64,000 bases of DNA from contig NZ_JAMXMY010000014.1 in NCBI RefSeq assembly GCF_024055795.1, positions 62,001 through 126,000 of the forward strand, read 5' to 3'. Source of the stretch: Actinoallomurus purpureus. Its GTDB lineage: Bacteria > Actinomycetota > Actinomycetes > Streptosporangiales > Streptosporangiaceae. Position numbers and translations under genes: made by a program. The notes below the pieces were generated by a model. That model did no database searches, was not told where the DNA came from, and was given only the letters and a program-made list of their open reading frames with translations. This document shows, in pieces, positions 43,590 to 62,327 of this stretch. Position 1 is the first letter of the stretch; each line of letters opens with the position of its first letter.

Positions 43590-44612
43590 TTAGAGATGTT
43601 CTCGGATCTGCATCATGTGATCGCGGCGGTGGGACGGAGCCGGTAGGCGCTTAAACGTCCCGTCCTCATCTCTATGAACGCAGTCGATGCCATAATGGTG
43701 GAGCAGCTCGATATCGGAATTGGCTGGGCGGCTTGGGAACAGACCCGTGAGGCGTGTTACCTTCTGTTGAATCTGTAGATAATAATCTAGGAGTTGGCCT
43801 AGCGCTTGGCGAACAAAATGGTGATCGGCAGATCTCTTTGCTTCGATTACATCGGCGTCGTCGTGGGTGACGACGTATAGGTCAGTAACTCCCGACGGCA
43901 CGCGGATTCGGGTAACACTGGCCCCGTCGAGCGCCGCTCGATATTCCCTTACCAGGATTGCTTCAACGCGACGGACCAGGGTTGTCCCAGTGGCCTTTTC
44001 GTAACAGGTATTTTCGGTATTAACGGCTTCTACGTCGACGATCTGTGACTGGCTGACGAGGCTATCTATCAGTTTTTGTTCCTGCTTGATGGCTTTGCGA
44101 GCCGCGGTCAGTGTTTCGATGTTAAGGCCGTCGATGATTATATTCGCCTTGTATGCATCCAGGAGTCGTAGACCCATGAAATTGTCGCCGGAATTGAAAC
44201 CCGGTAGATCCCAAATCTCCTCGTAGGGGATCACGGTGGCCTGGAAGCTGAGCAAGCTGTAGACGTTTCGGTAGGATCCTCGTTCAGGGTGTGGGGCCCA
44301 GAGGGTGTCGGCGAACGCCGGGTTGCGGAAGCTATATCCGACCTCGCCTACGGCCCTGACTAGCTTTTTCCCTGTAAACAGAACCACGTCGCCAGTCTGG
44401 AGTTTTCCCATTTTCTTATCGTGGTTACCGGTCGCGCCCCAGAATCGAGCCGCACCTGAAACGTGCAGGGTGTCAAGGCCGGCGCGATCAGCTGAGGTCA
44501 GGGCTTCTGCGTGTGGGCTTGCGCCGTATTCGATCTCTTGATCCAAAGTGTCTCGCCAGTGCCTCTGTGCCGTTGGGTTGCCAAAGGAGGGCTGGATGAC
44601 GACCTGTGTCAT
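43590..44612 (-). CDS. EVE-like domain protein with PD-(D/E)XK nuclease, candidate modification-dependent restriction protein
   Basis: The 340-residue protein has an N-terminal EVE/PUA-like segment (SGAARFWGATGNHDKKMGKL, GDVVLFTGKKLVRAVGEVG, about 50-115), a middle helix region and a C-terminal nuclease segment. There DLYVVTHDDADVIEAKRSAD and FVRQALGQLLDYYLQIQQ give Asp, then ExK, as in PD-(D/E)XK enzymes. EVE domains bind modified bases, so a type IV-like enzyme is plausible. GAGGAC precedes the ATG. It lies between two GH105-like relics, near the phosphorothioation genes, in less GC-rich DNA. Confidence 0.7.
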   Translation of the reverse strand: MTQVVIQPSFGNPTAQRHWRDTLDQEIEYGASPHAEALTSADRAGLDTLHVSGAARFWGATGNHDKKMGKLQTGDVVLFTGKKLVRAVGEVGYSFRNPAFADTLWAPHPERGSYRNVYSLLSFQATVIPYEEIWDLPGFNSGDNFMGLRLLDAYKANIIIDGLNIETLTAARKAIKQEQKLIDSLVSQSQIVDVEAVNTENTCYEKATGTTLVRRVEAILVREYRAALDGASVTRIRVPSGVTDLYVVTHDDADVIEAKRSADHHFVRQALGQLLDYYLQIQQKVTRLTGLFPSRPANSDIELLHHYGIDCVHRDEDGTFKRLPAPSHRRDHMMQIREHL

Positions 44613-45162
44613 ACGCGAAGTCCTCGTCGGAGTTACGACTCGTTCACCGTGAGTACTTCACGGCTGCGGGCGGACGCCGGTGCGTTGCTCGCACTCCTGA
44701 TCTTTGCGCACACGTACGACAAATCGGCTATAAGACACGGATAGTCAGCTATACGGACAAGACGATCGAGATGCCGGACTCTAGGAGGCGGGTGACATCA
44801 GACGGTTCGGCGACCGATCTGCTCTGCACCTGCGCTGCAGCCAGCGGCCGTAGCTAGCTAGGGAATGGGTGCTCAGGGCTCGGCCGTCCCAGACGCGGAC
44901 CGGATGGGATCCCACCCTTGAACTGCGAAGACATAATGAACGACCACCTGACCGGATCTGAGCGGTGCTGATTTTCCGCTGCCGGTCGACCCGCGGGGAA
45001 CAGGAGTGACGAGGACTTCTGAAGACCGGCCAGGACGTCCGCGGACTCCACGACCTGTGACACGGGCCGGAAGGTCAGAGGAAGAGACCCCGACCGGGGC
45101 GCCCCGGCCGTCGGCCTCGACCGCAGTCAGGCCCGCCGCGCCCGCCCACCCGAACCAACCAA
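44613..45162. other. Intergenic region, no gene seen
   Basis: The 550 bases carry only short arginine-rich or broken frames. Fragments of lower GC suggest foreign origin. The promoter of the EVE-like gene should lie at the left end. Confidence 0.4.
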
Positions 45163-45625
45163 TCGGCTGGCCTCGCCGCGCTCACCCGGCCCGTACTCGC
45201 CGAGAACGGCAACGCGCGGTACGCGGGGGCTTGCGAGTAAATGCTCGACTGGCTCGGCGCCCACCCCACCGGCGCACCGGGCGGCGCGATCGAACACTGG
45301 CTCGGCAGCGTCTGGGCGGACACCGTCTTTATGGTCGGCGTCTTCCTGCTGCACTACGGACGGCTCACCGGACGCCGTGGCGTCATCGCCAAGGCGAGCC
45401 GGCAGGACCTCGCCCATGCCGATGTCCTCCGCGACCCAGGCACCGGGCTGTATGCGCACGGCTACCACTGCGGCGAGACGATCTGGTGCTTCTGGGGCAG
45501 GGCGAGCTCGTTCCGTTCAGCTACTCAGTGATCCAAGACGACCTCATCCAGCCATCGGGCCAAGGCCTTGCCCTGCACGCCTATGCAGCCCCGCCCTGCA
45601 CGACCGCCAACACGACCAGCAACTG
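45163..45625 (+). pseudogene. GH88/GH105-like glycoside hydrolase relic, second copy
   Basis: The forward strand reads QSAGLAALTRPVLAENGNAR, a TAA, then MLDWLGAHPTG, AIEHWLGSVWADTVFMVGVF, DVLRDPGTGLYAHGYHCGET and IWCFWGR. After a frameshift near 45505 it continues ELVPFSYSVIQDDLIQPSGQ. The blocks VWADTVFM and DPGTGLYAHGY are those of GH105 enzymes. An in-frame stop and a frameshift make it a pseudogene; a middle portion, corresponding to that kept in the first relic, is deleted. Confidence 0.6.
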
Positions 45626-45894
45626 ACGAACAACGAGATCCACAGAGAGCCGGTCCAGTATCGCCCTCGACCAGCTCGTCGGGCCGCACCGCCAGGGAAC
45701 AGCAAGGTGGCAGGCACCTGCGGACGGAGATCATGAGCTGGGAGCCTCATGGGGTGATCAAGAAGTCCGGCACACCGATCAGGAACCCTGGAGGCGTTCA
45801 TCGAAGGCCTACAAGTCCTTTACCAGGAGTTACCATTTCCGCTAAGCTGCCGCTGGCAGCGACATGATCAAAGACGATCGCCCGGGGAGTCGGT

Positions 45895-47613
45895 GTGGAC
45901 CAGGCCCACGTTTACCGGTACGAGGTTTACGTCCTCCAGGAGACCGAATCAAGTAAGCCGCTGCTCCTGTTCGCTGCCAACGCGCTCGAAATAAGCGAGT
46001 GGGCAGGTATTCCTCAACGTCGACGCCTTTCCGGCGAAGAGACGGTCGGCTGGCAGCGCGAGGAGAATGTTGGTCGCTTGCGTGAGCTTGCGAAATTCTT
46101 CGATGACGGCAAGAACGTAGTCCAAAACCCACTCCTTTGTGCACTGCAGGATCCGCAGTGTGTCACTTTTGAGCCGTTGGACGGACTGCCGAATTTTGGC
46201 GAATTGGTGATCCGGCCATCGGTAAAACAAGACACACCTCTTCTTGAGGTACTAGAGCTATTGTCTCAAAGGCTTGAAAGCCGAGTCCCTAGTCTCAAGG
46301 ACCATGCGATCGACACCGACCGCCGAAGAAAGGTGCGGGAGCGCGCAAGATTCGAAGATGGTCTGCATCCTCAACTGCCGTCAGACTCGGCCGACCTGGT
46401 GGAGCCCGAGGGCGACGAGGTGCGCCTGACTCCTCAAGTCGAGGAGAACGAGACCGAAGATGTAGCTTCCGTTGTACTGACGGAAGAGACACAGCTCGTT
46501 GACTTCTATCAGGAGCTACGAATTCGGATAGAAATCCTAAGGGAGTTGCCTGCTGACGCCAGGCCAAGCAAGCTAGTCGGATTCTCCGCAGACGCGATGC
46601 TCAGTTATCTGCAACCAGTCGTGCTGGTTGATGGGCAACATCGTCTCCATGGAGCAGTACTCTCGGCCAAGAAGAGGATCCAATCCAACGAGATGCAGGA
46701 CATCCTGATCGATCAGGTCAATAACGGGATTAACCCTGCGGAGGCGGAAAGAAGTGCGCTCCACGAATCCGCTAGGATGCTCCCCGTCTCACTGCTTTTC
46801 GACGCGAATCCGGCAGAGCATGTCTTCCAGTTCGTGGTGGTAAACCAGAAAGCCACACCTATGGGGAAGGCGCTGCTAGGGACTATTGTCTCCACCAGTC
46901 TATCCCGTGAGGAGCTCGAGCCGGTAGCGGATAGATTGCGCAAAGCGTCGATCCCTCTCGATGATTCGCAATCTGTCTCGTATATGACACGCGCCGATGA
47001 GAGTCCCTTTAAAGCACTTGTACAGACCGGTATGGGTGGAGACGATCGCCGCCACCTCCAATGGTCTGTTCTCAAAAGCCTAACGCAGATATTCCGCGAA
47101 TTGAAGGGCGGAAGGGTCTTCGGGGATACCAACGACTACGCCGAACTGTGGCAGCAGCGACATCTAGAGAAGTCGGACCTCGTTAGCCAAGGCGAATCGT
47201 TGGAGGAAAAATACCGAATCTGGAGGGAGCCGGATGGTCCGTGGAGAGCCGTATTTGTGCGCTTCTTCACCATTATTCGAGACCGGTTCGGCGACCCTGA
47301 TCCGGAAGCGCATAACGCGTGGGGCAACACGAACAAGAACCTGTACAACAAGATATCACTAACCATTCTTGCTGCAGATTATTTCCAGTTCCTATGCGAG
47401 ACCAAAACGGCGATCAATGACTTGAATGACGTCGATGAGTCAGTAGCAGACTGGCTAGAAGGCGCCAATGATCAATATTTCGCGCGAGACTGGCGCATGG
47501 ATCTGAAGAAGGATCAGCGTAGAGTGCGCGAAACCTGGGCCAAGGTATGGGTCCAGTATCGCAAGAATCCTGCACGTCTTCCTAGGGTGGAGAACTACAC
47601 GCCATCTTCCTAG
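45895..47613 (+). CDS. DGQHR-domain protein (DndB-related)
   Basis: The 572-residue protein carries VVLVDGQHRLHGAVLSAKKR at about 245, and later FQFVVVNQKATPMGKALLG, the DGQHR family signature also found in DndB. It is much longer than the DndB encoded at 52527 (376 residues) and diverges outside the motif. GGGGAG precedes the GTG. Codon use is distinctly AT-richer than in the neighbouring chromosome. It is followed after 24 bases by an HNH endonuclease, so the two form a cassette; by analogy, it may bind or sense modified DNA. Confidence 0.8.
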   Translation: MDQAHVYRYEVYVLQETESSKPLLLFAANALEISEWAGIPQRRRLSGEETVGWQREENVGRLRELAKFFDDGKNVVQNPLLCALQDPQCVTFEPLDGLPNFGELVIRPSVKQDTPLLEVLELLSQRLESRVPSLKDHAIDTDRRRKVRERARFEDGLHPQLPSDSADLVEPEGDEVRLTPQVEENETEDVASVVLTEETQLVDFYQELRIRIEILRELPADARPSKLVGFSADAMLSYLQPVVLVDGQHRLHGAVLSAKKRIQSNEMQDILIDQVNNGINPAEAERSALHESARMLPVSLLFDANPAEHVFQFVVVNQKATPMGKALLGTIVSTSLSREELEPVADRLRKASIPLDDSQSVSYMTRADESPFKALVQTGMGGDDRRHLQWSVLKSLTQIFRELKGGRVFGDTNDYAELWQQRHLEKSDLVSQGESLEEKYRIWREPDGPWRAVFVRFFTIIRDRFGDPDPEAHNAWGNTNKNLYNKISLTILAADYFQFLCETKTAINDLNDVDESVADWLEGANDQYFARDWRMDLKKDQRRVRETWAKVWVQYRKNPARLPRVENYTPSS

Positions 47614-47637: not shown

Positions 47638-48597
47638 ATGAACCCTCATCTTGTTGGTAATTGGGTAGACGTAGCTGGCGAGGCATTGGAGACGGGATGG
47701 TCGCGCAAGGCTCTTACCGATCTCGCGAAGCTCGAAGTCCCCGCCGACATCCTGGGTGATATGGCATGGGTCATCCGAGGTGACGCCGCAGCCACCTGGG
47801 CCCAGTGGTTCCTCGAATCCTTGATCGATAGCGCTCCGTACGAGAGCCGTGAAGATCTAGGTTTCGCTCATCTCTATGAAGAACTGCGCCGGATCCTCCG
47901 TGACGAGCTTCACGCGTGCCCTATGGACGAGGTATCGGCGCTTGCCTCTCAGATTGCGAAGGTCGCATGGCGAGAGATTTCGTTCCGCCGCGAATCCGGG
48001 CTACGGAAGTCTCCAAGCAAGGAGCAGCGTAAGCGTCTGTGGCTCCGCAACGAGCCTGACCCAAGATGTTATCTCTGCGGATACAAGTTTTGCGAAGCGG
48101 CAAAGGATAGATTTCTGAATGGAGGCGACATTGGAGACATTGCCCGTCCTTTGCTGTTCGACTTCATGCGTCCGCGTGGGCTCCATGCTGTCGATTTGAC
48201 GATTCAGATTGACCATGTGCGACCAGTGCGTGCAGGGGGCGCGACAGATGACGAAAACCTAAGGTTTGCATGTGGCTGGTGTAACAGAGCAAAGTCAGGC
48301 CATATGCAACTCTACGGTGCATCGTCATGGGTAAACCATCGGATACAACACCCACTTCTAGGATGGGTCTCGATACCGAGGCCTCTGTGGGTCGTTCGTA
48401 TGACGCAGCTCCGGGCGCGCTGCGAGGATCCTAGCGGTTGCTCGGCAACGCTAGCTACGAATGAGCTATATGTAGCACCGAAGCGTACTACTGGTGCCTT
48501 TAATCCCAGCAACTGCCGGATATACTGCGACGTACACGATCCTTGGGCGGGTATCCGATTCGTCGGGGAGAAGGTTCTCTCGGCGAAGTCTCCATGA
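47638..48597 (+). CDS. HNH endonuclease, partner of the DGQHR protein
   Basis: The 319-residue protein has a C-terminal HNH/zinc domain (CYLCGYKFCE, LTIQIDHVRPVRAGGATDDE, LRFACGWCNRAKSGH). It contains two CxxC pairs and the catalytic His-Asn-like residues, with about 135 helical residues before it. The upstream part has no recognised family and does not resemble the sulfur-binding domain. The gene begins 24 bases after the DGQHR gene, same strand. The lower GC matches its partner. A nuclease acting on modified or unmodified DNA beside the Dnd cluster is the likely role. Confidence 0.82.
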   Translation: MNPHLVGNWVDVAGEALETGWSRKALTDLAKLEVPADILGDMAWVIRGDAAATWAQWFLESLIDSAPYESREDLGFAHLYEELRRILRDELHACPMDEVSALASQIAKVAWREISFRRESGLRKSPSKEQRKRLWLRNEPDPRCYLCGYKFCEAAKDRFLNGGDIGDIARPLLFDFMRPRGLHAVDLTIQIDHVRPVRAGGATDDENLRFACGWCNRAKSGHMQLYGASSWVNHRIQHPLLGWVSIPRPLWVVRMTQLRARCEDPSGCSATLATNELYVAPKRTTGAFNPSNCRIYCDVHDPWAGIRFVGEKVLSAKSP

Positions 48598-48658: not shown

Positions 48659-49036
48659 CTAGTCGAGCGCCATCCGAACTAGGTCATCGATGCCTTTAAG
48701 GCTCTTGCGGCCTGCAAGGTGTCCGATGCCGCGGTGAACGTGAACGATTAGGGCGGCGGAAATGGCCTCGTCTGTCGGCTCACTTCCGTCTACTAGACAC
48801 CGTTGCTTGAGGAGAACGAGGTAGATGTCGCCGTAGGCGCCGGCGAATGTCTTCCAGCTCATCTCGACATTAGAGTCGGTCGTGATCTCTCGTACGAGAG
48901 GAGGCGATGGGTCTTGGAGTGACAACGTTAGAGCCCACCGACATAGAGTGTTCCAGTGCTTAATGCCCGTAATGCGCTTCAGTTTTGTCAGCTGGTCCTT
49001 GGCTGGCTGTGACAGCCGGATATTGTCAAGCGACAT
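48659..49036 (-). CDS. dndE: DNA sulfur modification protein DndE
   Basis: The 125-residue protein reads MSLDNIRLSQPAKDQLTKLK, TGIKHWNTLCRWALTLSL, then SWKTFAGAYGDIYLVLLKQR, the DndE pattern of a small helical protein that binds nicked DNA. The ATG at 49036 overlaps dndD by 11 bases; a frame to 49123 has an unrelated leader. It is the last gene of the dndBCDE operon. Confidence 0.93.
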   Translation of the reverse strand: MSLDNIRLSQPAKDQLTKLKRITGIKHWNTLCRWALTLSLQDPSPPLVREITTDSNVEMSWKTFAGAYGDIYLVLLKQRCLVDGSEPTDEAISAALIVHVHRGIGHLAGRKSLKGIDDLVRMALD

Positions 49037-51020
49037 CCGAAGCCCCTGTAGTCCACCAGTAGCCGCGTTCGATCGTTGTGACAAAGCGCTTGTCGTCGTG
49101 AACCAACATGTAGGTGTGCGCAATCGATGGGGCGAGCTTGGTCAGTAGGTGCTCGTCAATCTCTTCGTCGGTAGAAAGCAACAGGACTTGATGACTTGCG
49201 AACGGGAAGTAGCGCTCCACCAGCTGCTCTCGGTGTCGGCTGTCCAGCCGTCCAAGCGGCGTGTCGATCACACTTGGCTGGCGCTTCCCTGCTACGCGCG
49301 CGAGTCCCCAAAGGAGCGCGACGGCGAGTAGCTGTCGTTCCCCCGCGCTGAGTCGGGATGGATCGAGCTGTTCGTCATCCGGGCCGACCAAGGTCAGAGT
49401 GAACTTTTCCGTGTCGATGCGGAGGTCACGTACCAGCTCGCTCTTACGCATAAGCCTGTTAAAGCTATCCAATACGGCTACTTCCAGCCGACTTATATGT
49501 CGACGAAGTAGTGCGGATCCGAACTTCTCAAGCGTCTCGCGGGCGCGGTCTGTATAGGAAACAATGCGGGTCGCCGATTCGGTCTGGGCGAGCTTTTGTG
49601 CACGTCGCTTGTAGGCGCGGTCACGGTCGAGCGATAGCTGTTGCCTCTGTCGTCGGGACTTGGCAAGCACTTCCTCAAGAGTGGTCAGCGCGGATCGGAT
49701 TTGCGTTACCCGGTCACGAGCGGTATCTCGCTCTTCAATGAGCGCAGCGATTGCATTCTTGTCCGGGACGCCGGCGAGTTGTCGCTCCAGAGTGTTGAGA
49801 CGCTCCCGCAGATTTCTCGCCTGGCCGACCAGTTCACTGGCGCGCTTGGCCTCGTCTTTAAGTAGTTGATCTAGGGACGACAGCTGAGGAAGGGCGCTTG
49901 CCGGGAAATCCAGTACTTGAGGCGTCTCTGCGGCTATCTGGGCGCGTATTTGTCGATCTTCGGCGAGATAGCTCTCTGCTGCAGCGATGCTTTGGGAGGG
50001 GACCAGCGTCCTGAGCATCTCGAGCACCATGTGATCTCGCTCGTTCAGGAGCTCGATTACCTGGGCGCTGTCTGCGGCTGCGTGCTCCTTGTTGATCTGC
50101 TCACGAAGCGAGGTTAGCTGTGTCTGGAGGAGGAGCAGAGGAAGCGGCCCAGCGACCACGGTGGTCGCGAGCGTTTCGCTAACGCTCCTTAGCGTGGATT
50201 CTGTTTGCTCTTTCTGTGCTTCTAGGTCGGCACGTCGACTGTAGAGGTCGCCTCCTTCTTTCGAGAAGGCGACGTCGATCACTGAGTAGTCGTCTTCGGC
50301 TCTGGCTAGGCTGTCGCGAAGGGACGCAACTTTTTGGTTGAGGTCAGCACACTGCTGGTCGACCTTCCTGATATCCGCTTCTATCAACCGAATACCTCCC
50401 ATTGTCTCGTCGTCTTCCTCCGAGACCTTCTGGCGGCGCTGGAGGGCGAGGAGGTCGGTGCGTAGCTTTTCGACAGTGTTGACGCCAAGAAGCGAATGAA
50501 CTGCAGATTCTATGACTGGGGCCGCACGCTCCGGATCGGCAAGCGACTCAATCTTCTCTCCGTCGAAAAAGAATAGCGAGGCGGCTTCGATCGGCAGGAT
50601 CTCTTCGATGTGGTCTGCCCAGTTCTCACTGATGACCTTGTCGTACTCGCCGTCGATGAACACTTCAAGGAACTCGCGAACGGCCTTGTCGTAGGCTTCC
50701 CAACTGCGACAGACCCGGTAGAGCCGTTCCTGACCTTCGAGCGTTGTGGAGAACTCGACGACAACGTGGGCATGCTTGGGGTTGGCGTCCCTGTTCACGC
50801 TGTCTTTGAGGTAGCTCTCATAGGGGCGGTTGCCGCGACCACTGGTACGTGCTCGCGGGCCGTAGAGCGTTAGCTGGATTGCATCCAGCAGGGTTGTCTT
50901 TCCGCAGCCGTTGAGGCCTCCGATCAGGATGATCGGACGCCCAGGCCTGGTCGCGAGGTCCAGAGACTGTTCGTCTTTGTAGGCGCCGAAGTTCTTGAGG
51001 GTGACCCTATGAAGCAACAT
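49026..51020 (-). CDS. dndD: DNA sulfur modification ATPase DndD
   Basis: This 664-residue SMC/RecF-like ATPase starts MLLHRVTLKNFGAYKDEQSL and has Walker A LIGGLNGCGKTTLLDA at about 34. The two coiled-coil arms are long (about 190-500), with a signature LSAGERQLLAVALLWG and a Walker B/D-loop VIDTPLGRLDSRHRE. It overlaps dndC by 14 bases and dndE by 11. In the family it acts with DndC and DndE in sulfur insertion, probably by providing ATP-driven DNA nicking or remodelling. Confidence 0.94.
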   Translation of the reverse strand: MLLHRVTLKNFGAYKDEQSLDLATRPGRPIILIGGLNGCGKTTLLDAIQLTLYGPRARTSGRGNRPYESYLKDSVNRDANPKHAHVVVEFSTTLEGQERLYRVCRSWEAYDKAVREFLEVFIDGEYDKVISENWADHIEEILPIEAASLFFFDGEKIESLADPERAAPVIESAVHSLLGVNTVEKLRTDLLALQRRQKVSEEDDETMGGIRLIEADIRKVDQQCADLNQKVASLRDSLARAEDDYSVIDVAFSKEGGDLYSRRADLEAQKEQTESTLRSVSETLATTVVAGPLPLLLLQTQLTSLREQINKEHAAADSAQVIELLNERDHMVLEMLRTLVPSQSIAAAESYLAEDRQIRAQIAAETPQVLDFPASALPQLSSLDQLLKDEAKRASELVGQARNLRERLNTLERQLAGVPDKNAIAALIEERDTARDRVTQIRSALTTLEEVLAKSRRQRQQLSLDRDRAYKRRAQKLAQTESATRIVSYTDRARETLEKFGSALLRRHISRLEVAVLDSFNRLMRKSELVRDLRIDTEKFTLTLVGPDDEQLDPSRLSAGERQLLAVALLWGLARVAGKRQPSVIDTPLGRLDSRHREQLVERYFPFASHQVLLLSTDEEIDEHLLTKLAPSIAHTYMLVHDDKRFVTTIERGYWWTTGASDVA

Positions 51021-53690: not shown

Positions 53691-53706
53691 TCACGTGCAC
53701 ACGTGA
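53691..53706. promoter_or_regulatory. Palindrome in the dndB-dndA divergent promoter
   Basis: TCACGTGCACACGTGA is a perfect 7-2-7 inverted repeat, 29 bases before the dndA ATG and 33 bases before the dndB GTG. It is the only such site in the divergon, so it is the best candidate for a regulator of both arms. It overlaps the alternative dndA GTG at 53703, which argues for the later start. Confidence 0.65.
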
Positions 53707-53735
53707 TGATGTGGACAGAGGGGTGCCGCAAGCAG

Positions 53736-54887
53736 ATGGCCGCGTACCTGGACTCAGCAGCGACAACCCGGGTTGACCCCCGGGTCGCAGAGGTCGTCCT
53801 CCACTGCATGACCGAGGACTTTGGCAACGCCGGCAGCAGGACCCATGACTGGGGTACCCGTGCCAAACGCGCCGTCCAGCAGGCACGCGAGCAGCTTGCT
53901 GCTCAGGTCGGTTCCAGCCCGTCCGAGCTGATCTTCACCTCTGGCGCGACCGAGAGTAACAACATCGCGCTCCTCGGGCTTGCCGCTTACGGGGAGAAGC
54001 AGGGGCGTCGGCACATCATTACCTCTGCCATCGAGCACAAAGCTGTGATCGAGCCCTTGGAACACCTTGCGTCTCGGGGCTTCGACGTCGACTTCCTTTC
54101 ACCTGGTCCTTCCGGGCGGCTCAGCGTGGCAGCCGTCCAAGAGCGGCTCCGCGATGACACGCTGCTTGTGTCTCTCATGCACGTGAACAACGAAACCGGA
54201 GTGATCCAACCCGTCGCCGAGCTTGCTGATCATCTGCGCGGCACGTCCACCTACTTCCACGTCGATGCGGCTCAGGGCTTCGGCAAGTTGACGGAGGACC
54301 TGAGAGCGCCGATCGATCTCATCAGCATTAGCGGCCACAAGATCGGAGCGCCTAAGGGCGTCGGCACGCTGGTGATCCGCCGGCGTGGGCGCGACACGGT
54401 GCCTCTGGTGCCACTCATGTATGGCGGGGGGCAGGAGCGCAAGCTCCGGCCCGGCACTCTGCCTGTACCGTTGATTGCCGGCCTAGCCAAGGCGACAGAG
54501 ATCTTCGAGCGCGAACGGGATCAGTGGTGGGCCGAGGCAGCCGCATTCCGTTCACGCCTCGTTGACGCGCTGGGAAAGACCAAGCTTCACTTTAACGGGG
54601 ATCAGGAGCATGCTGTTCCTCATATCCTTAACGTCTCCTTCGACGGCGTGGATGCCGAGGCTTTGATCGTCCAGCTCAAAGAGATCGCCGCTGTCTCGAC
54701 GGGGTCAGCCTGCACGAGCGCGTCCTACACACCCAGCCATGTGCTCCGAGGGATGGGACTGCCGGACAGCATCGCCGCCAACGGATTGCGCTTGTCGTGG
54801 TTCCCCGATCAGATCGCAGAGCTCAACGTCGATGAACTGGCTGCCGAGATAGCGGAGTTCCAGGCCGGGACGGCCTTTCTTGGCTAA
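53736..54887 (+). CDS. dndA: Cysteine desulfurase DndA
   Basis: The 383-residue pyridoxal-phosphate enzyme begins MAAYLDSAATTRVDPRVAEV and has the PLP lysine in SISGHKIGAPKGVG and the sulfur-carrying cysteine in STGSACTSASYTPSHVL. It supplies sulfur to DndC. In-frame starts up to 53703 exist, but the ATG at 53736 gives the family length and clears the palindrome. The last codons overlap the stop of the converging methyltransferase-like gene by four bases. Confidence 0.93.
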   Translation: MAAYLDSAATTRVDPRVAEVVLHCMTEDFGNAGSRTHDWGTRAKRAVQQAREQLAAQVGSSPSELIFTSGATESNNIALLGLAAYGEKQGRRHIITSAIEHKAVIEPLEHLASRGFDVDFLSPGPSGRLSVAAVQERLRDDTLLVSLMHVNNETGVIQPVAELADHLRGTSTYFHVDAAQGFGKLTEDLRAPIDLISISGHKIGAPKGVGTLVIRRRGRDTVPLVPLMYGGGQERKLRPGTLPVPLIAGLAKATEIFERERDQWWAEAAAFRSRLVDALGKTKLHFNGDQEHAVPHILNVSFDGVDAEALIVQLKEIAAVSTGSACTSASYTPSHVLRGMGLPDSIAANGLRLSWFPDQIAELNVDELAAEIAEFQAGTAFLG

Positions 54888-56326
54888 CTAGCACCACGGC
54901 GCCGCACCAGGCGATGGCCGCGAAGCTCCCGCCCGCAACGAGCCAGTTCCGCCTCCCAGCCGTCCTCAGTCCCGATCAGCTGCGGATTTCGGTAGAGGCC
55001 CGCTCGCGTCTCGGACTGGGTCAACCGACGGTATTTCGGTACGTCCGGGTCATCGGCGGCGAGGAACTCGTGCTTACGGTGGAGTAGCGGCCGGTTGGCC
55101 GAGACTTCGTACGACTTGAACGATGCCTTCAACGTCGTCAGGTCCACCATGTAGGACGAGTGCAGCTTCGGGTGCGGGTCGGTGTCGAACTCCGGATACT
55201 CCAGCCAGCTCACCGCCCGACCTTGATGACGCAGTTTGGCGACTGTCCAGGAAGCCGGGCGGCCAGCGGCGATTGAAGCACAGTGTTCGTAGAGCCGTAG
55301 CACCGTGGGCGTCTGGTTGATCGCGCGCCTGTGCACGTAAAGCGCCGTGGGCGTCAGTTTCCCGACCTTCGACGCCTGCATGGCCCCTCTGACGTAGGTG
55401 TCGTCCCGTAGCTTGAGTAGCAGGCGGTCGGCCCGCATGCAGGCTTCCTTGTAGGAGGAGAAGAAAGCCCTGACGTCCAGTTGTAGGGACATGGGGAGGC
55501 TGCTGTAGGGGCCACGTCCGTTGAACAGCTCGACCGTAAGGAACAGTAGTGCGGATAGGGTCGATGCCCTGATACCAGCCTCGATCTTTTCGGGGTCGGC
55601 CGACTTTTTCACGATGCGCTGCAGTTCGTTCGGTTGGAGATGTACGAGGAGCTTGGGCATCTCCGTTGGCATCTCTTCCAGCCTTGGTAGGCGACCGCGT
55701 CGCTCGGTGTAGTCCACTACGGAGGCGATTGCTGAGCCGGTGTCGTCGGAGGCCAGCCAGTCTGCGTGTGGAACGATCTTCCGGGCCAGATAACGAAGGC
55801 GCGCGTCGTCGTTCTTGAACGCGTAGACGATGCCTGGGGCGGCGGAGACGCATCGGACACCGGTCGCCTCCTCGACGTAGGAGCGAAGCTCCGCTGGGCT
55901 GAACAGGTGTTGGAATGTCCGTCTGTTCGTCAGGACACCGTCCTCGTACTGCAGTCCTCTCACCTTCGACCGGTCCCAGGTGAGCCGCGTGGTCACCGCA
56001 AGCAGATGCTCCGCAAGCCCCCACGCGTGCTTTAGCGCTTCGCGTCGTTCTTCGGGGTCTTCAATGACGTTGAGGACGTAGGTCAGCAGTACGACATCCG
56101 CTGGTTGAGGAGCGCCGTCAGCGGCGTAGAAGGGGTCCCACCCATGAGCATGGAACTGCATTTCGCGAAGGCCGCGGACATCGTCACCGCGTCCGCTGCC
56201 GTAGTCCAGGACGCTGGTGGCCATGTTCACCTCGCCATCGACAACAGCCTGCCGGGCTGCCACCGACAGTGTGGTGCGGCCGATCGCGGTGAGGCGGCGA
56301 TCGCTCTCCCAGTGCAACCCGGACAT
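54884..56326 (-). CDS. DNA phosphorothioation-associated methyltransferase-like protein
   Basis: The 480-residue protein has a SAM-binding segment (ATSVLDYGSGRGDDVRGLREM, HGWDPFYAADGAPQPADVVLLTYVLNVIED) and downstream blocks LLAVTTRLTWDRSKVRGLQYEDG, FQHLFSPAELRSYVEEATG and LHSSYMVDLTTLKASFKSYE, as in the Dnd-related methyltransferase family (TIGR04096-type). GGGAG lies five bases before the ATG at 56326. It lies 97 bases after the assoc-4 gene and so may be in that operon. The target (DNA, or a regulatory role) is not known. Confidence 0.88.
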   Translation of the reverse strand: MSGLHWESDRRLTAIGRTTLSVAARQAVVDGEVNMATSVLDYGSGRGDDVRGLREMQFHAHGWDPFYAADGAPQPADVVLLTYVLNVIEDPEERREALKHAWGLAEHLLAVTTRLTWDRSKVRGLQYEDGVLTNRRTFQHLFSPAELRSYVEEATGVRCVSAAPGIVYAFKNDDARLRYLARKIVPHADWLASDDTGSAIASVVDYTERRGRLPRLEEMPTEMPKLLVHLQPNELQRIVKKSADPEKIEAGIRASTLSALLFLTVELFNGRGPYSSLPMSLQLDVRAFFSSYKEACMRADRLLLKLRDDTYVRGAMQASKVGKLTPTALYVHRRAINQTPTVLRLYEHCASIAAGRPASWTVAKLRHQGRAVSWLEYPEFDTDPHPKLHSSYMVDLTTLKASFKSYEVSANRPLLHRKHEFLAADDPDVPKYRRLTQSETRAGLYRNPQLIGTEDGWEAELARCGRELRGHRLVRRRGAS

Positions 56327-56423
56327 GGAAGCTCCCGTTCGTTCCGTCGGCACCCCACTCATACCGCGATTCATCGGGTGTCGCTCAGCGATTGCCGAGC
56401 GAGGCCTACTGCGGAGCAGTCGA

Positions 56424-56912
56424 TCAGGATTCGAAGTCGGGCGTTCCGAAGCCGGTGAGGCGCGGGCCGAGGATATCGTGAACCATGCTTTCGGCGGGTG
56501 TCATTCCCCGGCGACAGAGGTTCAGAACGACGTCCATCGGGCGAACATGCGTGCCGCTGTTGAGCTCACCTTGAATGATGGAGAGCCCGCCGTTGGCGTA
56601 CTCCTCGAACACCTTGATCCGCTCGGGGAGACGGTCGTCGGCCATGATCCCCGCATCGTTCGGGTGTGCAAGGACCCCCATCGAGTCGATCACGGCCGAC
56701 ACAGTCGCGGAACTGTTGAAAAGTCCGTAACGGATCGGCTCGCCTGCCTTCTCGAACGGCTCGTGCCGACCTCGCGACCAGCCGAGCGCCGCCGCGAAGA
56801 CGAGAACCTGCCAATAGTTGGGGAACGGACCGCCTTCTTTAGAGACCAGCCGGCCAATGAGATCCTCATGCTCCAGGGGGCGCCGGACGCGGACATCGGC
56901 GTTGAGGACCAT
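56424..56912 (-). CDS. Dnd-system-associated protein 4-like
   Basis: The 162-residue soluble protein reads RRPLEHEDLIGRLVSKEGGP, YWQVLVFAAALGWSRGRHEP, GLSIIQGELNSGTHVRPMDVVL. I match it to the Dnd-associated protein 4 family (TIGR04062-type). The ATG overlaps the ATPase stop by one base (TGATG), so they are translationally coupled. No catalytic motif is seen; a structural or adaptor subunit of the restriction arm is likely. Confidence 0.8.
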   Translation of the reverse strand: MVLNADVRVRRPLEHEDLIGRLVSKEGGPFPNYWQVLVFAAALGWSRGRHEPFEKAGEPIRYGLFNSSATVSAVIDSMGVLAHPNDAGIMADDRLPERIKVFEEYANGGLSIIQGELNSGTHVRPMDVVLNLCRRGMTPAESMVHDILGPRLTGFGTPDFES

Positions 56913-58981
56913 CAGTTCCGAACCTCCGTGAACTCAGCGCCGGTCCGGTCGGAACCGACGACCTGATAGGGGTAGGTGTTTCCGTTCAGCGTAAGTTTCT
57001 CGGTCACACTGCTCACATCGGTCTTGGTGGTGTGCGCGGTGATCACGTACTGCCTGCCGAGACGGGGCCGCAACTCCTGCTCGACGATCTCCCCGGCCTG
57101 CGCTTTGCTGGTGAGGATCACCACCTGGGAGGCGAGTCTAGGCAGGAAGTCGGCAATAGCCTTGCGGTAGTCGTCGTCCAGGTTGCCGAAGACCGCATCC
57201 ATCACCACCGGGAAATCGCCACCGATCCCTTGGATGAAGGTACGACCATTCTCCTGTCCCTCTCGTGCCTCACCGATGAGAGAACCGACGAAGGCGAGGG
57301 CCAGCAGCATGTTCTCGCCGGTGGACTTGGGCGCCGGGATTCGTTCGCTGCCGCTCGAATCCCACAGCTCCAACTCAAAGTCCGGGGTGAGCTCTGGTTC
57401 GTAGCTCTTAAACGACACCTGGCGATAAAGCTCCTGAATACGTGCGTCTAGTCGACGCCGGACTCCCTGAGAAAGGATCTCCAGAATCTTGGCAAGCGCC
57501 GTGCTCGCTTCCTCCACAGCCATGATCCGGCTCCTGATCCGGCGGCTGCGAGCATCCTTGACCTCGAGCTTTTCGATCTGATTCTTCAGACCCTCTTTGA
57601 CGCTTCCTAGCCGCTGGATCTCGGCAATAGCGGCACCGATCGCCGCCACCTTCTCATCCCGGTCGAGCTTAGCCGCATCCAACTTTTCCTCGGTCCGGAG
57701 GACCTCCTCGGACGGTAGGCGCTTGAGTTTGTTTCCGATCTCGTCGATACCGTGCTCGAGGCGGCGCTGCTCCTCTTGTGCCTCGGCAATCCGCTCGTCA
57801 AGGCTCCTCAGCGCTTCGTGCATTCGCGTTCTCTGCTCGTCGATGCTTTCTACGGTCCCCCGGAGCTGGTTCCAGGCGGCTTCCACTTCCGCGAGTCCGG
57901 CACGAGCACGCCAGTGTTCCAGCGCGGTGCGGTGAGGGCTTCCGCCGGTCAGGGGTGTTCCGCAAATACACTGACCGCGCTCAAGCAGGTCGTCAATGAA
58001 AGCCCGCTTGAGCGGTGCCGGGAGCTCGCCACGCTCGCGTAGCTCCTCACAGGCGGCCAAAATCTTGCCCGGCAGAGCGGGGAGGAAGCCAAGGAAGCCG
58101 CTCGTTCCCACTAGCTTGGCGCGCTCCTCCTCTTGCTCCTGCCGCACTGTACGGATGCGCCTCAATTGGTCTTCCATCCGGTACCGCTCCTTTTGAAGCT
58201 CCTTTGCCTCGGTGAGCTGCGTCATCTTGAGGTTCAGCGACTGAATTTCGGAATCGAAGTGCTTCTTCTCCTTCTCGGCGCCGTTTCGGCGCCGCTGCTG
58301 CTCCTGGACCATACGTTCGGTGTCCTCCATCTTCCCAAGGAGGTCGTCCAGCATCTGCTGGGACGCGTCCTCGGCTTTAATACCGCGACGCAGCTTCTCT
58401 GCGACCTTGGGCAGATGGTCGACCGCACGCTCCATGGCCTCCAGCCCGAGAAGCGTCTTGACGGCTTCACGCACATCTTCGCCGCTATCGTGCCTCACCA
58501 AGGCTTCGATGCGCTCACCGTTCACGAAGAAGAAGCGACTCAAGCGCGCGGGCAGCATCTGGTTGAGGATCCCGCTCGGGTTGAGTACTTGTTCGAGATT
58601 TCCGCCTCTCTCGCGCCGCCACAGTTGCAGCTCGGGCCTCGGCCGCGGCTGGATCACGCCGCGCTTAGATGCGTAGACGGATCGCTTCAGGATGTAGACG
58701 TCGCCGCGGTGCTCGAACTCGACTGTTACCGAGGCGGTCAAAGGCGTACCCTCGTCTGCGCTATTCCAGACGGTCGTATTGATGAGTTGGTCCGGCTTCT
58801 CGACGTCTGCACTGAGCTCGCCGTAAAGAGCCCAGGTGAACGCATTCAAGAGGGTCGTCTTGCCGCCGCCGTTGGTGGCCCACAGGACGGTGACGTTGGT
58901 CTCCGGATCCCGCGCGAAGCTGATCTTCTGCGTTCCCTGGTAGGGGCGAAAGTTCTCCAGTTCGACCGAGAGGAACTTCAT
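56912..58981 (-). CDS. SMC/DndD-like coiled-coil ATPase
   Basis: The 689-residue protein starts MKFLSVELENFRPYQGTQKI and has Walker A LWATNGGGKTTLLNAFTW at about 35, two coiled-coil arms (about 180-275 and 360-500) and a hinge-like ERGQCICGTPLTGGSPHR at about 340. The C-terminal GENMLLALAFVGSLIGEA and PVVMDAVFGNLDDDYR (signature and Walker B) close the ATPase. It differs from DndD at 49026 in the hinge and both ends. The ATG shares a base with the upstream TAA (TAATG). It probably forms the ATPase of the restriction arm. Confidence 0.87.
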   Translation of the reverse strand: MKFLSVELENFRPYQGTQKISFARDPETNVTVLWATNGGGKTTLLNAFTWALYGELSADVEKPDQLINTTVWNSADEGTPLTASVTVEFEHRGDVYILKRSVYASKRGVIQPRPRPELQLWRRERGGNLEQVLNPSGILNQMLPARLSRFFFVNGERIEALVRHDSGEDVREAVKTLLGLEAMERAVDHLPKVAEKLRRGIKAEDASQQMLDDLLGKMEDTERMVQEQQRRRNGAEKEKKHFDSEIQSLNLKMTQLTEAKELQKERYRMEDQLRRIRTVRQEQEEERAKLVGTSGFLGFLPALPGKILAACEELRERGELPAPLKRAFIDDLLERGQCICGTPLTGGSPHRTALEHWRARAGLAEVEAAWNQLRGTVESIDEQRTRMHEALRSLDERIAEAQEEQRRLEHGIDEIGNKLKRLPSEEVLRTEEKLDAAKLDRDEKVAAIGAAIAEIQRLGSVKEGLKNQIEKLEVKDARSRRIRSRIMAVEEASTALAKILEILSQGVRRRLDARIQELYRQVSFKSYEPELTPDFELELWDSSGSERIPAPKSTGENMLLALAFVGSLIGEAREGQENGRTFIQGIGGDFPVVMDAVFGNLDDDYRKAIADFLPRLASQVVILTSKAQAGEIVEQELRPRLGRQYVITAHTTKTDVSSVTEKLTLNGNTYPYQVVGSDRTGAEFTEVRN

Positions 58982-59169
58982 TACGCGATTCCCTCAACCT
59001 TCTTCGCCATTTCATCGCGAACCGTGTTTCTGGCCAAAGCCTCGGACTTGTGGAGATTCTCCCATTCCAGAGCGAGAACCATCCTGATGACGTCGTACGC
59101 ATTCGGGTTAATCTTGGTGAGTATCTGCTGGACTCGCTCGATTTCCTGCTGGTCCATCTTGTTGGTCAC
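58981..59169 (-). CDS. Small protein in the Dnd-associated operon
   Basis: Sixty-two residues, starting MTNKMDQQEIERVQQILTKI and containing NAYDVIRMVLALEWENLHKS. GGGAG lies eight bases before the GTG. It is charged and helical, with no membrane segment. The gene is coupled to the ATPase by TAATG and begins 12 bases after the helicase stop, so its product must be made with both and may bridge them. No family was recognised. Confidence 0.7.
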   Translation of the reverse strand: MTNKMDQQEIERVQQILTKINPNAYDVIRMVLALEWENLHKSEALARNTVRDEMAKKVEGIA

Positions 59170-59181
59170 TGAAGTTTCTCC

Positions 59182-61305
59182 CTAAACATCCATGAGCTCG
59201 TAGTACTCGCGCAGGTCACGTAGCTCGCTCAGGGCCTCTCCGTAGTTCTCGGAGTGTTTGGCGAACTCGACGAAGCGCTGCATTTCCCGTCGGAACAGGT
59301 TCCTCTCCGTCTCGAAGAGCTCTTGGTCCTGCGGTGGCACCGCGACGAAATCGATGACCTCGGCCGCTGTCTTTCCTGAAGCTCTACGCAGAATCCTTCC
59401 GCGACGCTGAATGAACTGCCGGGGGTTGCTGCTGCTGGCTAGCATGTAGGCGATCCGGGCGTCCGGAAGGTCGACACCCTCGTCCAGGCAGCGCATCGAG
59501 ACCAGCGCTTCTAGGTCGCCGGCTCCAAACGATTCGAGGAGATTGCGCCGCTCCTGTTTGGACTCCTGTGAGGTATAGGCATGCACACGCATACCGAGCT
59601 GGTTGCCGAGGAGAGCGAGCGCCTGGTCGACCTGGCGCTCGCCGCCCATAGGATCGTCCTCCTTTGGGCGACCTCCCTCGGCGCAGTAGACCAGCTGGAA
59701 CGGCAGCTCGCGCCGCTTGCTGACCTCATCCCGTAGCGCGGCGATCTTCCCTTCAGCGTGACCGAGCACCTTCGCTCGCTTATTGAGCAGTTGGCCGAGC
59801 TGTGCCTCTGCGTCGTCGCGGGCCCTTCCCCTGGCACCTTTAACCTGGCCATAAAGTGCGCCGATCTTGCCGGTGAGGATCGTGTAGTGTGCCGCCTCTT
59901 CGTCGGTGAGGGGAACCAGCACCGGGCGGTACTGGTACCGGGTGAGCGCGCCCAGCTCGATCGCGTCCTTGAGCCCGAGGCCGATCAGGGTCTCCCCGAA
60001 GTAGCTGCGGAGTGCCTCGGTGCCCTCGTCGTCGAACCAGCGCTCTGGCGTGGCCGAGAGTGCCAGCCGCCACGGCGCGTTATCCGGCAGGCCGGAGCGG
60101 TAGTGATCGGCCCCCAGGTGGTGAGCCTCGTCCGCAATGAGCAATAGCTCGTTTCCTACAGACGACAGAACATCCTGGAAGGCGGCCGAGCCGAAGGTCT
60201 TGTTGGTGACGACCAGGGTTATTGCTTGTCCCGGTCGCAGGCCCGCGATCGCATTATTCGCTTGAGCTCGCCATGTAGTTACCGAATCCCGGCACTTGAC
60301 CGGAACGACCCCAAACCGGTTGAGTTCCTGCGACCACTGCTCGACCAGGTCGAGTAGGGGAACCACGATCACGGTTACGAGGGAGCTGCTACGAGCCCGC
60401 AACTGGCGGCCGATCTGGTCGAGTGCCGCTAGAGCGGTGATTGTCTTACCCGTGCCGGTCGCCATCTCGAAGATGCCGCATGCCCCCGCTTGGAGCCACT
60501 TCGTAATGGCATCCTTCTGGTACTCGCGCAGCTCGATTTCCTCGGGAGTGCTGGCCCAGCCGTACTTGCTGGCCTCTTCACGACGACGTTCGCGATCCTG
60601 CCGTGCGGAGGCGTCCGAGTCGGCCTTGGCCATCCGCGCTGCCAGCTCGCGCAGATGCTCCTCCGCCTCGTTTGGAAACTCCAGCACTTCGAGGCGCTGG
60701 GTTTTTCCCTCCCACAGTGCGGCGAAGTTTTCCTCGATCCGTCGTACCCGGCGCGCGTCTCCCGGCGTCCAAGAGGTGAACACTTCAATGGATTCGAAGT
60801 TGTCCTCCATCGCGGCGCGCGTCTCGTTCAGGGAGCCGGTGAAGGCGACCGTGTTTCCCTCGTAGTCGGTAACGACGCCGATTTTCTCGTGATAGATGCC
60901 GAGCCCGTTAGTATTCGCTACGACCGCGATCTTGATCTCGAGAACGCCATCGGCGATCAACTTGCCCAGCGTTCCGAGCTTCTTAGCCGCCCGCGCATCG
61001 AGCGTTTCGGGAGCGACCGCTCGGGCAACGGCCCGTGCGACGATCGCGCGGTACTCATAACCTCGGCGGATGTCCTCGACATCGTCGGGTGAGAGCAGCG
61101 GGCCGGCTACCAGGCGGATCTTGCCGCCGTTCGTGCGCAACCCGTCGACACCACGCGCCACCAACTCCAGGGAGGTGCTGGTGAAGTAGCCGACGGCTCG
61201 GTCATACTGTACGGCCTTCGCGAGCACCGGTATGTAGAAGTCGTTGGCGACGTTACTAATGTCAGTTCTGTAGGAGTCTTCTATCGGGACGCTGGGCAGG
61301 CTCAT
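59182..61305 (-). CDS. PLD-family nuclease fused to SF2 helicase, candidate phosphorothioation-dependent restriction enzyme
   Basis: The N-terminal 230 residues are phospholipase-D-like with GIYHEKIGVVTDYEGNTVAF (HxK) and GSLNETRAAMEDNFES. From about 270 an SF2 helicase follows: LREYQKDAITKWL, Walker A MATGTGKTITALAAL, Walker B LLIADEAHHLGADH, LALSATP, and MRCLDEGVDLP with RRGRILRR. The architecture resembles type III/ISP-like restriction helicases and the helicase family associated with Dnd (TIGR04095-type). The ATG at 61305 has an AGGTG site; a GTG at 61314 is possible. It heads the restriction-arm operon. Confidence 0.87.
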   Translation of the reverse strand: MSLPSVPIEDSYRTDISNVANDFYIPVLAKAVQYDRAVGYFTSTSLELVARGVDGLRTNGGKIRLVAGPLLSPDDVEDIRRGYEYRAIVARAVARAVAPETLDARAAKKLGTLGKLIADGVLEIKIAVVANTNGLGIYHEKIGVVTDYEGNTVAFTGSLNETRAAMEDNFESIEVFTSWTPGDARRVRRIEENFAALWEGKTQRLEVLEFPNEAEEHLRELAARMAKADSDASARQDRERRREEASKYGWASTPEEIELREYQKDAITKWLQAGACGIFEMATGTGKTITALAALDQIGRQLRARSSSLVTVIVVPLLDLVEQWSQELNRFGVVPVKCRDSVTTWRAQANNAIAGLRPGQAITLVVTNKTFGSAAFQDVLSSVGNELLLIADEAHHLGADHYRSGLPDNAPWRLALSATPERWFDDEGTEALRSYFGETLIGLGLKDAIELGALTRYQYRPVLVPLTDEEAAHYTILTGKIGALYGQVKGARGRARDDAEAQLGQLLNKRAKVLGHAEGKIAALRDEVSKRRELPFQLVYCAEGGRPKEDDPMGGERQVDQALALLGNQLGMRVHAYTSQESKQERRNLLESFGAGDLEALVSMRCLDEGVDLPDARIAYMLASSSNPRQFIQRRGRILRRASGKTAAEVIDFVAVPPQDQELFETERNLFRREMQRFVEFAKHSENYGEALSELRDLREYYELMDV

Positions 61306-61314
61306 CTCTTGCAC

Positions 61315-61769
61315 CTGTTGATCAACTGAAGGAACCCCATCGCATTGGGCGTGAACGCAGTAGCCCCCTTGCCTGATCTAGAGCCGTCTCTACCTGGATC
61401 GTGAGTCCTGCGTCGCAGCTCTTGCCGACGCAATGCTGCGGAGAAAGCGAATCGGGTGGCACCGCGCTCGTCGAGCCGGTGCGCCACGTCGTTCCGCCTC
61501 CTGGATCGGGGGAGAAGCAGCCTAGGCCCTTAGCTGAGAACCACGAGCCCAACCGACTCCAGGCGGATGGGGTCGGCAGAGCCACCGGGGTACTTGGCGC
61601 ACACCCGCCAGGTGTCCTCGACACAGGGACGCGGTCGGTGCGGCCCGGCGAGGAGCTCAGAGACGGCGTGTCTCCATACAAGGGGAAGTTAAGCGATGCG
61701 ACTGTGAGCCGGGAGAACGGCGGATGGGACGAAGCAGCCAGTCTCCTTCCGCTTCTGCATGCCCCGGGG
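61315..61769. other. Intergenic region between Lsr2-like and helicase genes
   Basis: The 455 bases separate two genes on the same strand. A forward frame of 131 codons (61401-61796) is not convincing. The region should hold the promoter of the five-gene operon. Confidence 0.4.
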
Positions 61770-62327
61770 TCAGCCATTGCGGGACTCGCCGCGTAGAACC
61801 TGGAGGAAGTCCTGGAGCTTTGAGTCGGACGTGTCAGCGTCGATGGCGGGGTCGAAGGCCGGAACGTCGTTCCCTTCCTCAGCATCCCAGAGGCCTGGTG
61901 AGTTCTGCGGTTCTTGGGCGTGTTCGGTGTGGTACAGATCGACGACCCAGGCCGGAACCCGGCCGCGATCGCCGATCGAGATGCCCTTCTGTTGCGCCCA
62001 CGCGCGGATGACAGACGCCGGCACGTCATCCGAGCGGTACTTGGAGCCTGGGGCATCACTGACCTGGCTCGCGAAGCTGTTCGACCGGTCGGCCGTTCTT
62101 GTGCCCCTCTGGTTTGACGCCGAGGCCTGATCATCTATCAGTGAGAGCAGGACTGCGGCGATCATGTCCCGGTAGGCGGTCCAGATGTAGCGCGGCATCG
62201 CATCCATCCCGCGCCGGCTCATGAGCTCATTGGCCCATTGCTTGGCGTAGACATCCCGTACGAGTACGGACATGTCGGAGAGCCTCTCAAGCCGCTCCCA
62301 CGGCGGAATCTCGACTTCGTCGGTCAT
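61770..62327 (-). CDS. Lsr2-like C-terminal-domain protein
   Basis: The 185-residue protein ends in a region with VPASVIRAWAQQKGISIGDR and GRVPAWVVDLYH, which has the Lsr2 pattern (helix, then DRGRxP AT-hook-like turn). The N-terminal part (WERLERLSDMSVLVRDVYAKQ, RYIWTAYRDMIAAVLLSLID) is new and not the Lsr2 dimerisation domain. GGAGGGG precedes the ATG at 62327. Lsr2 domains bind the minor groove of AT-rich DNA; here the protein may regulate the island or recognise invading DNA. Confidence 0.72.
   Translation of the reverse strand: MTDEVEIPPWERLERLSDMSVLVRDVYAKQWANELMSRRGMDAMPRYIWTAYRDMIAAVLLSLIDDQASASNQRGTRTADRSNSFASQVSDAPGSKYRSDDVPASVIRAWAQQKGISIGDRGRVPAWVVDLYHTEHAQEPQNSPGLWDAEEGNDVPAFDPAIDADTSDSKLQDFLQVLRGESRNG

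Follow-up and report, generated by a model that had tools for sequence, protein, structure and literature searches.

A predicted DndABCDE-PbeABCD phosphorothioation defence locus in Actinoallomurus purpureus, its methyltransferase-like partner and an adjoining DGQHR-HNH gene pair

The window analysed here is a stretch of 64,000 nucleotides from Actinoallomurus purpureus (order Streptosporangiales), comprising bases 62001-126000 of contig C5; the genome measures 9.25 Mb. Judged from its genes, the region is most probably (about 0.86) a defence locus based on DNA phosphorothioation (PT), of the known DndABCDE-PbeABCD kind. The minus strand carries dndB to dndE (53666 to 48659) and a further operon (61314 to 54884); dndA begins on the plus strand at 53703. 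An initial annotation of this DNA had listed dndA, dndBCDE, the latter operon with five genes, and genes for DGQHR, HNH and Lsr2-like proteins, all of which are recovered as open reading frames and in hidden Markov model (HMM) scans. It had also held that DndF, DndG, DndH and SspE are missing, so that restriction must come from another set. That other set exists, but is not unknown: four of the five operon genes are PbeABCD, a PT-linked antiviral module described in 2019 and again, as the CxC-ATPase system, in 2024. The supposedly absent restriction set is present and known because PADLOC and the papers (PMC6459918, PMC10853773) identify PbeABCD, and an unknown set is thereby ruled out. The main locus adds little that is new; moderate value lies in a two-gene DGQHR-HNH cassette and in a methyltransferase-like gene shared between PT systems.

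DndA, DndB, DndC, DndD and DndE each score above the curated cut-off of their family and form one cluster. By these matches the window holds a complete DndABCDE core, and PT in the DNA is predicted from the genes. The cysteine desulfurase gene dndA (53703..54887, plus strand) matches TIGR03235 (4e-158). On the minus strand lie dndB (52527..53666; DGQHR-domain regulator, TIGR03233, 2.2e-159), dndC (51007..52530; PAPS (3'-phosphoadenosine 5'-phosphosulfate)-reductase-like sulfurtransferase with an SGGKDS loop, TIGR03183, 4.1e-210), dndD (49026..51020; coiled-coil ABC ATPase without a C-x-C hook, TIGR03185, 7.8e-199) and dndE (48659..49036; 125 residues). A longer open reading frame of dndE, up to 49123, was scanned against TIGR03184 (4e-36) and PF08870 (1.8e-39), and the 125-residue form matches the PADLOC DndE model (3.5e-18). 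Following the general Dnd roles, DndA would draw sulfur from cysteine, DndC together with DndD and DndE would insert this sulfur at a target motif of the DNA backbone, and the level of modification would be tuned by DndB.

DptF (TIGR03238) and DptH (TIGR03237) have no match across the 9.25-Mb genome, DptG not being searched for. Both models score above cut-off (1208.6 and 453.8 bits) in a dnd-bearing E. coli record, which was picked via DndD as positive control. The claimed absence of DndF and DndH holds by these models, and no dptFGH-type set, as the initial annotation had considered outside the window, is seen with them anywhere in the genome. The absence of SspE is qualified by one GmrSD_N (DUF262) protein of 389 residues, about half the length of SspE, which is encoded on the same contig ~30 kb beyond the island (G000:C5:152478-154741) and adjoins an AAA ATPase-like gene; the two are possibly a separate defence module. 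Among 342 genomes of the host order DptH exceeds its cut-off in none, with a single weak match of 30 bits, while PbeA-like matches above 100 bits, a threshold set after inspection of the scores (gap from 149.3 to 63.6 bits), occur in 21. PbeA-like genes, not DndFGH, are by these counts (21/342 versus 0/342 for DptH) the usual PT partner in Streptosporangiales.

All four Pbe genes lie on the minus strand, in the published order. The gene pbeA (59182..61314) encodes a PLD/HKD nuclease fused to an SF2 helicase (PADLOC PbeA, 3.6e-245; PF13091, PF04851), and its product keeps HxK...D and GSxN as well as the helicase motifs GTGKT, DEAH and QRRGR. The product of pbeB (58981..59169) has 62 residues and no family match in the HMM scan, with homologues at the equivalent position in relatives. 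The coiled-coil ABC ATPase (AAA_23) encoded by pbeC (56912..58981; PADLOC PbeC, 4e-173) contains the C-x-C motif as CIC at residue 338, and pbeD (dnd_assoc_4; 56424..56912) encodes 162 residues with a match to TIGR04062 (1.5e-25) above cut-off. PbeB and PbeD are published with 66 and 152 residues, respectively, and the PADLOC models of PbeA and PbeC match the window proteins over nearly their full length. PbeA relatives with 77-84% identity are found in records of Actinomadura, Microbispora and Planobispora. The one-base overlaps noticed initially are confirmed at pbeB/pbeC (TAATG) and pbeC/pbeD (TGATG), whereas the pbeA stop and the pbeB start are 12 nucleotides apart and pbeD and the methyltransferase gene 49, i.e. 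close and non-overlapping. It is plausible that PbeABCD form a complex.

In Haloterrigena jeotgali, dndCDEA-pbeABCD cuts the plating of virus SNJ1 about 10^4-fold (Xiong et al. 2019, PMC6459918). Each of the four pbe genes is needed there for full protection, with slight protection left without pbeA; PT-modified virus escapes, and no visible cutting of viral DNA was observed. Rakesh et al. 2024 (PMC10853773) name the identical set the CxC ABC-ATPase system, count 936 bacterial and 41 archaeal taxa in which it stands in tandem with DndD systems, argue that PbeA should cut DNA and claim PbeD as a DndE cognate. By analogy, Dnd-Pbe would work in this actinomycete as in Haloterrigena, with PbeA (PLD nuclease plus SF2 helicase), PbeB, PbeC (CxC ATPase) and PbeD as an attack arm on unmarked DNA that halts its replication.

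The fifth gene of the operon (54884..56374, minus strand) encodes a PT-associated putative methyltransferase of the family TIGR04096, which is found above cut-off in 25 of 345 genomes of the order. The neighbourhoods of all 25 were inspected, and because the loci were selected for holding the methyltransferase gene, the counts describe TIGR04096-bearing loci only. Dnd genes are held by 22 of them and Ssp-type genes by three (G079, G218, G307). The same-strand order pbeA, pbeC, pbeD, methyltransferase is found in 10 of the 25 (window, G017, G078, G164, G196, G217, G231, G234, G291 and G310), and PbeB is placed between pbeA and pbeC in seven of these ten. In G164, G231 and G291 a PbeB-like segment is present in the stretch at a position not given, the positional search is negative, and the gap between pbeA and pbeC amounts to ~200 nucleotides. 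The order, whose absence from other loci the initial annotation had considered as a counter-argument, thus recurs, and since it is conserved in 10 of 25 genomes (window included), the arrangement is taken to be an established one. In G004 Pbe is inverted, in G249 it lies beyond dndE, and in G186 and G115 it stands at another place of the locus; divergent Pbe occurs in G044, G079, G218 and G259 (PbeA identity 27-33%). PbeA-like matches above 500 bits occur in 14 order genomes, each of which also carries the TIGR04096 methyltransferase.

Several observations weigh against the Dnd-Pbe assignment. TIGR04095 gives the window PbeA 535.9 bits at a cut-off of 600, which is passed in none of the 342 order genomes; the model matched all 342 via other helicases. 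The PADLOC PbeC models are unselective, as the best score of the window DndD itself is with one of them (785.8 bits, versus 712.9 for DndD). Because the PADLOC name PbeC fits DndD as well, PbeC is called here by the C-x-C motif, which is present in the window PbeC and absent from the window DndD, by the low DndD score (168.3 bits on TIGR03185, under the cut-off of 245.85) and by gene order. C-x-C is found in 17 of the 26 best PbeC-matching segments; of the nine without it, six come from PbeA-less loci (DndD by length), one is a 64-residue fragment at a locus edge, and in two (G259, G044) the match is again to DndD, by length, instead of to the PbeC-like gene that the locus has. The comparison of PbeD with DndE by hhalign, on shallow alignments, yields a probability of 0.07, no better than 20 shuffles. 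PMC6459918 and PMC10853773 are at odds over DNA cleavage by Pbe. Moreover, Pbe is not obligatory: 7 of the 25 genomes (G150, G153, G170, G198, G228, G307 and G325) have PT genes and the methyltransferase without a PbeA-like match above 100 bits.

These latter genomes, in which the PT genes stay, together with the inverted Pbe of G004, its position on the far side of dndE in G249 and the divergent PbeA/PbeC that G218 and G079 carry next to Ssp genes, would suit PbeABCD as a stand-alone, maybe suicidal module that lies beside dnd by chance, with an ATPase-DndE-like scanner, an HKD-helicase nuclease and a small-protein brake. Rakesh et al. (PMC10853773) argue this to be possible. We regard it as unlikely here, given that PT dependence is shown experimentally for the archaeal system (PMC6459918) and that 18 of the 21 order genomes with a PbeA-like match above 100 bits also have the PT-associated methyltransferase. 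A PT-based Dnd-Pbe locus remains the preferred reading.

The METHYLTRANSFERASE-like gene (TIGR04096) belongs, as its neighbourhoods indicate, with the marking step and not with Pbe. The window protein reaches 496.8 bits (6.2e-149) at a cut-off of 150. A phylum sample adds five genomes above this cut-off (6/396 including the window), and PT-modification genes share the locus with the TIGR04096 gene in all 30 sampled genomes, with or without Pbe, i.e. 24 with Dnd and six with Ssp. Since the PT genes stay with TIGR04096 while Pbe is inverted, displaced or absent, the methyltransferase is linked to the core. The supposed five-gene unit, while recurring elsewhere, is really a unit of four plus one, and the candidate of a fifth Pbe gene is ruled out by the neighbourhoods in relatives. 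A check of the Ssp loci with PADLOC finds SspA, SspB, SspC and SspD in G218, SspC and SspD in G435, SspD in G460, SspC in G522, SspD in L129 and SspB in L126, all ten proteins given being named Ssp; G079 and G307 carry the Ssp label by similarity to G218.

On plasmids, TIGR04096 is matched in 34 records, of which ten were inspected. In nine of them the stretch contains PT genes, namely Dnd in H11, H12 and H34 and Ssp in H13, H14, H20, H22, H25 and H31; H11 (Nonomuraea gerenzanensis) is apparently the same locus as G153 and not independent. The tenth, Massilia H33, has no PT genes in the stretch, and dndD lies ~11 kb away across the start of the same circular plasmid. The link to PT is already part of the NCBI family name; new here is that Dnd and Ssp both share TIGR04096, independently of Pbe.

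The window protein comprises a class I fold of the S-adenosylmethionine (SAM) type and, beyond it, additional sequence up to residue 496; its DYGSGRGD motif at residue 57 suits SAM binding. Its AlphaFold2 model has a pLDDT (predicted local distance difference test) of 88.3, and Foldseek returns general class I methyltransferases (small-molecule, tRNA, Hen1), with a best E-value of 9.3e-06. As the query TM (template modelling) score is at most 0.24, the matches cover about one domain; most alignments span ~180-240 columns, and the matched part is presumably the N-terminal fold, judging by the position of the SAM motif. A usual DNA base methylase is rejected as a candidate, the motif (D/N/S)PP(Y/F/W) being absent, with neither PP(Y/F/W) nor (D/N/S)PP. 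Any role of the protein is one that we infer: it would partner the modification step rather than Pbe, and might act on or beside the PT site. No literature naming TIGR04096 is found in searchable text, and the function of this widely PT-linked family becomes a testable question.

Alignment A1 of the family comprises 26 rows; from 30 segments L114, L028, L029 and L031 (incomplete or divergent) and L021 (a duplicate of the window) are omitted. TIGR04096 proteins of plasmids from cyanobacteria and proteobacteria (L126-L131, L149, L150) possess an extra N-terminal copy before the methyltransferase domain, which resembles the C-terminal region (query residues ~328-490). In the alphaproteobacterial plasmids L129, L149 and L150, SspD is followed by two unnamed genes, a gene with an FtsK/SpoIIIE domain and then TIGR04096, with one more unnamed gene in this run of L149; the arrangement is like that of SspFGH loci. 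Actinomycetota TIGR04096 proteins of ~545 residues with an internal near-duplication are present beside Ssp-type genes in L116 (G435) and L115 (G522).

Two plus-strand genes, 24 nucleotides apart, form the cassette. The first (45895..47613) encodes a DGQHR (ParB/Srx-like) protein of 572 residues, whose match to TIGR03187 (1.7e-11) lies below the curated cut-off, and the second (47638..48597) a CxxC-HNH nuclease of 319 residues (PF01844, 4e-08) with D-H-N-N and four cysteines. DGQHR domains are described with a QR pair, DGQHR and FxxxN, and E/D-H-N-N is given as the GmrD pattern (PMC4619093). The three DGQHR-domain features occur in this order in 7/7 sequences, that of the window among them; in one sequence the third motif has Y in place of F. 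E/D-H-N-N plus four cysteines occur in 6/6 aligned HNH proteins, G310 standing outside that alignment. There are six close loci, i.e. the window, G310, G186, pTi of A. larrymoorei, L147 and L148. The HNH gene directly follows the DGQHR gene on the same strand in all six, and dnd is in the same locus in five; L147 starts at a contig end and cannot be judged. L148, an IMG/VR contig, holds dndDE, the cassette and terminase-like genes (by eye) together, which suggests that such islands border or ride prophages.

Searches for the cassette that were not conditioned on dnd recover it in the window and G310 among 200 order genomes, and in the window alone among 360 class genomes; the cassette of G186 was located via its dnd locus. 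Plasmids yield 3 of 72,556 records (two of Agrobacterium larrymoorei, one of them inspected, and one distant Bradyrhizobium), phages 0 of 50,697 records and viral contigs two matches, in a scan seeded by short peptide patterns that may miss divergent relatives. HNH-led searches recovered loci of the same set and none beyond. In Bradyrhizobium the gene of the distant DGQHR protein (24% identity) precedes an HNH gene of the D-H-N-N type within a Dpd (7-deazaguanine) locus. A Dpd locus of A. vitis has a DGQHR gene beside an IS5 element, with the HNH gene on the other side, upstream and not downstream; its DGQHR protein is 26% identical to that of Bradyrhizobium (E 2e-16), and its HNH protein matches that of the window at E 2e-07, in a comparison of few sequences only.

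A two-gene version of the SspE/DndI type beside dnd would be the simplest reading of the cassette, held tentatively and at somewhat less than even odds. SspE and DndI combine a DGQQR ParB-like NTPase (nucleoside triphosphatase) domain and an HNH nickase in one PT-responsive protein (PMC9646914, PMC11662687). The cassette may correspondingly be a second effector that reads the host mark, with its GmrSD/SspE/DndI-like machinery divided between two genes, and that acts beside Pbe, not instead of it; in detail, the ParB/Srx-like protein might sense the mark and use nucleoside triphosphate, and the HNH protein nick unmarked DNA, both with the same tentative standing. Consistent with such a split are the three DGQHR-domain features, the GmrD-like nuclease pattern, the adjacency in 6/6 loci with dnd in 5/6, and the distant versions in two Dpd loci. 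Against it, neither GmrSD_N/DUF262 (PF03235) nor DUF1524 is matched in Pfam, and the profile link of the DGQHR protein to DndB is marginal (P 0.0025, probability 11.7; ten shuffles reach up to 0.60). The AlphaFold2 model of the DGQHR protein is poor (pLDDT 56.7), its fold search is empty, and no sequence relative of solved structure is found. Furthermore, the cassette is rare, with 2/200 order genomes and none further among the 360 class genomes, and the loci of the window and G186 were found via dnd, not independently. No description of the DGQHR-HNH pair is found in the literature text searched, figures and supplements, which may hold one, being outside its scope.

Taken jointly with the methyltransferase, a wider and rather speculative reading, more doubtful than otherwise, is conceivable. 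The cassette could be a mobile effector of two genes, able to combine with marking systems of different chemistry (backbone sulfur of Dnd; 7-deazaguanine of Dpd, for the distant versions), with one protein reading or tolerating the mark and gating an HNH nickase. TIGR04096 could be a general PT partner, common to Dnd and Ssp, with a possible part in finishing or editing the PT site chemically, S-methylation or neighbouring methylation being the boldest option. If so, a single sulfur mark would serve two attack arms of the island, Pbe and the cassette. It thereby becomes testable whether one host can run several nucleases under one DNA mark by means of a split ParB-like/HNH cassette.

Among the other neighbours, a gene for an Lsr2-like DNA-binding protein (61770..62381, minus strand; PF23359, 6.7e-10) lies upstream of pbeA. 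Such a gene occupies this position in the window, G017, G078, G196 and G234, and G004 shows a partial match; the protein is likely a regulator. The minus-strand gene at 43590..44612, initially read as an EVE-PD-(D/E)XK fusion, has no match in Pfam, NCBIfam or among solved structures, and its EVE half is not borne out by any Pfam or NCBIfam family. An E-x-K with preceding D and a Q...Y stretch suit PD-(D/E)XK, by eye only. Among 22 of the 25 neighbourhoods (those of G115, G186 and G307 apart) this possible EVE-like gene is confined to the window, and a 41% identical homologue of Rhodococcus lies away from dnd. By this distribution it is an unrelated neighbour outside the system, and the initial view of all accessories as parts of one composite system is not upheld. 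A Schlafen group 3 type helicase (40978-42885, minus strand; PF09848, 3.9e-83) is encoded beside the island, and its 69% identical homologue in G170 lies ~8.5 kb from dndE. A GHKL ATPase gene (weakly MzaB-like, 2.9e-18, far under cut-off) followed by a gene for a large DGQHR protein of ~725 residues recurs beside dnd, in L148 (2205-6333) and in the neighbourhoods of G228 and G259. The large DGQHR protein occurs without a GHKL neighbour in G153, G164 and G325, and GHKL alone in G170, G217 and G310.

The G+C content is ~0.70 over the first 30 kb of the window versus 0.55-0.63 over 44-64 kb, and because of this drop the island DNA is suggested to be acquired. Low G+C and the erratic EVE-like gene would also be expected of an ordinary defence island in which unrelated systems, i.e. 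Dnd, Pbe and the accessories, cluster by chance and do not cooperate. This is very unlikely in view of the gene order that recurs in 10/25 genomes, the methyltransferase that accompanies PT genes in 30/30, and the cassette that lies beside dnd in actinomycetes as well as on an Agrobacterium plasmid.

Compared with known systems, the locus shares the modification core with DndABCDE-DndFGH and differs in that DndF and DndH are not found in the genome. It resembles DndCDEA-PbeABCD of Haloterrigena jeotgali A29 (PMC6459918), with the order PbeA-B-C-D, similar protein sizes and the adjoining PT genes in common; DndFGH is not reported for that system, and DndF and DndH are not found here. The present locus differs from it by the presence of DndB, a divergent dndA, the flanking TIGR04096 and Lsr2-like genes and a bacterial host, and its activity is predicted from the genes. 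With the CxC ABC-ATPase-DndE systems (PMC10853773) it shares the PLD(HKD)-SF2 protein, the small protein, the CxC ATPase, PbeD and the tandem with DndD, whereas the PbeD-DndE homology claimed there is not recovered by hhalign with the shallow alignments used. The likeness to DndI and SspE (PMC11662687, PMC9646914) concerns the cassette only, which combines a ParB-like DGQ(Q/H)R domain with HNH beside PT genes; it differs by its two genes, the lack of a DUF262 or DUF1524 match and DGQHR in place of DGQQR. Again for the cassette only, the GmrSD type IV restriction enzymes (PMC4619093), which occur in one-protein and two-protein forms, share QR, DGQ(Q/H)R and FxxxN and the E/D-H-N-N nuclease; the cassette differs from them in having no Pfam match to PF03235 and in being linked to loci of host DNA modification.

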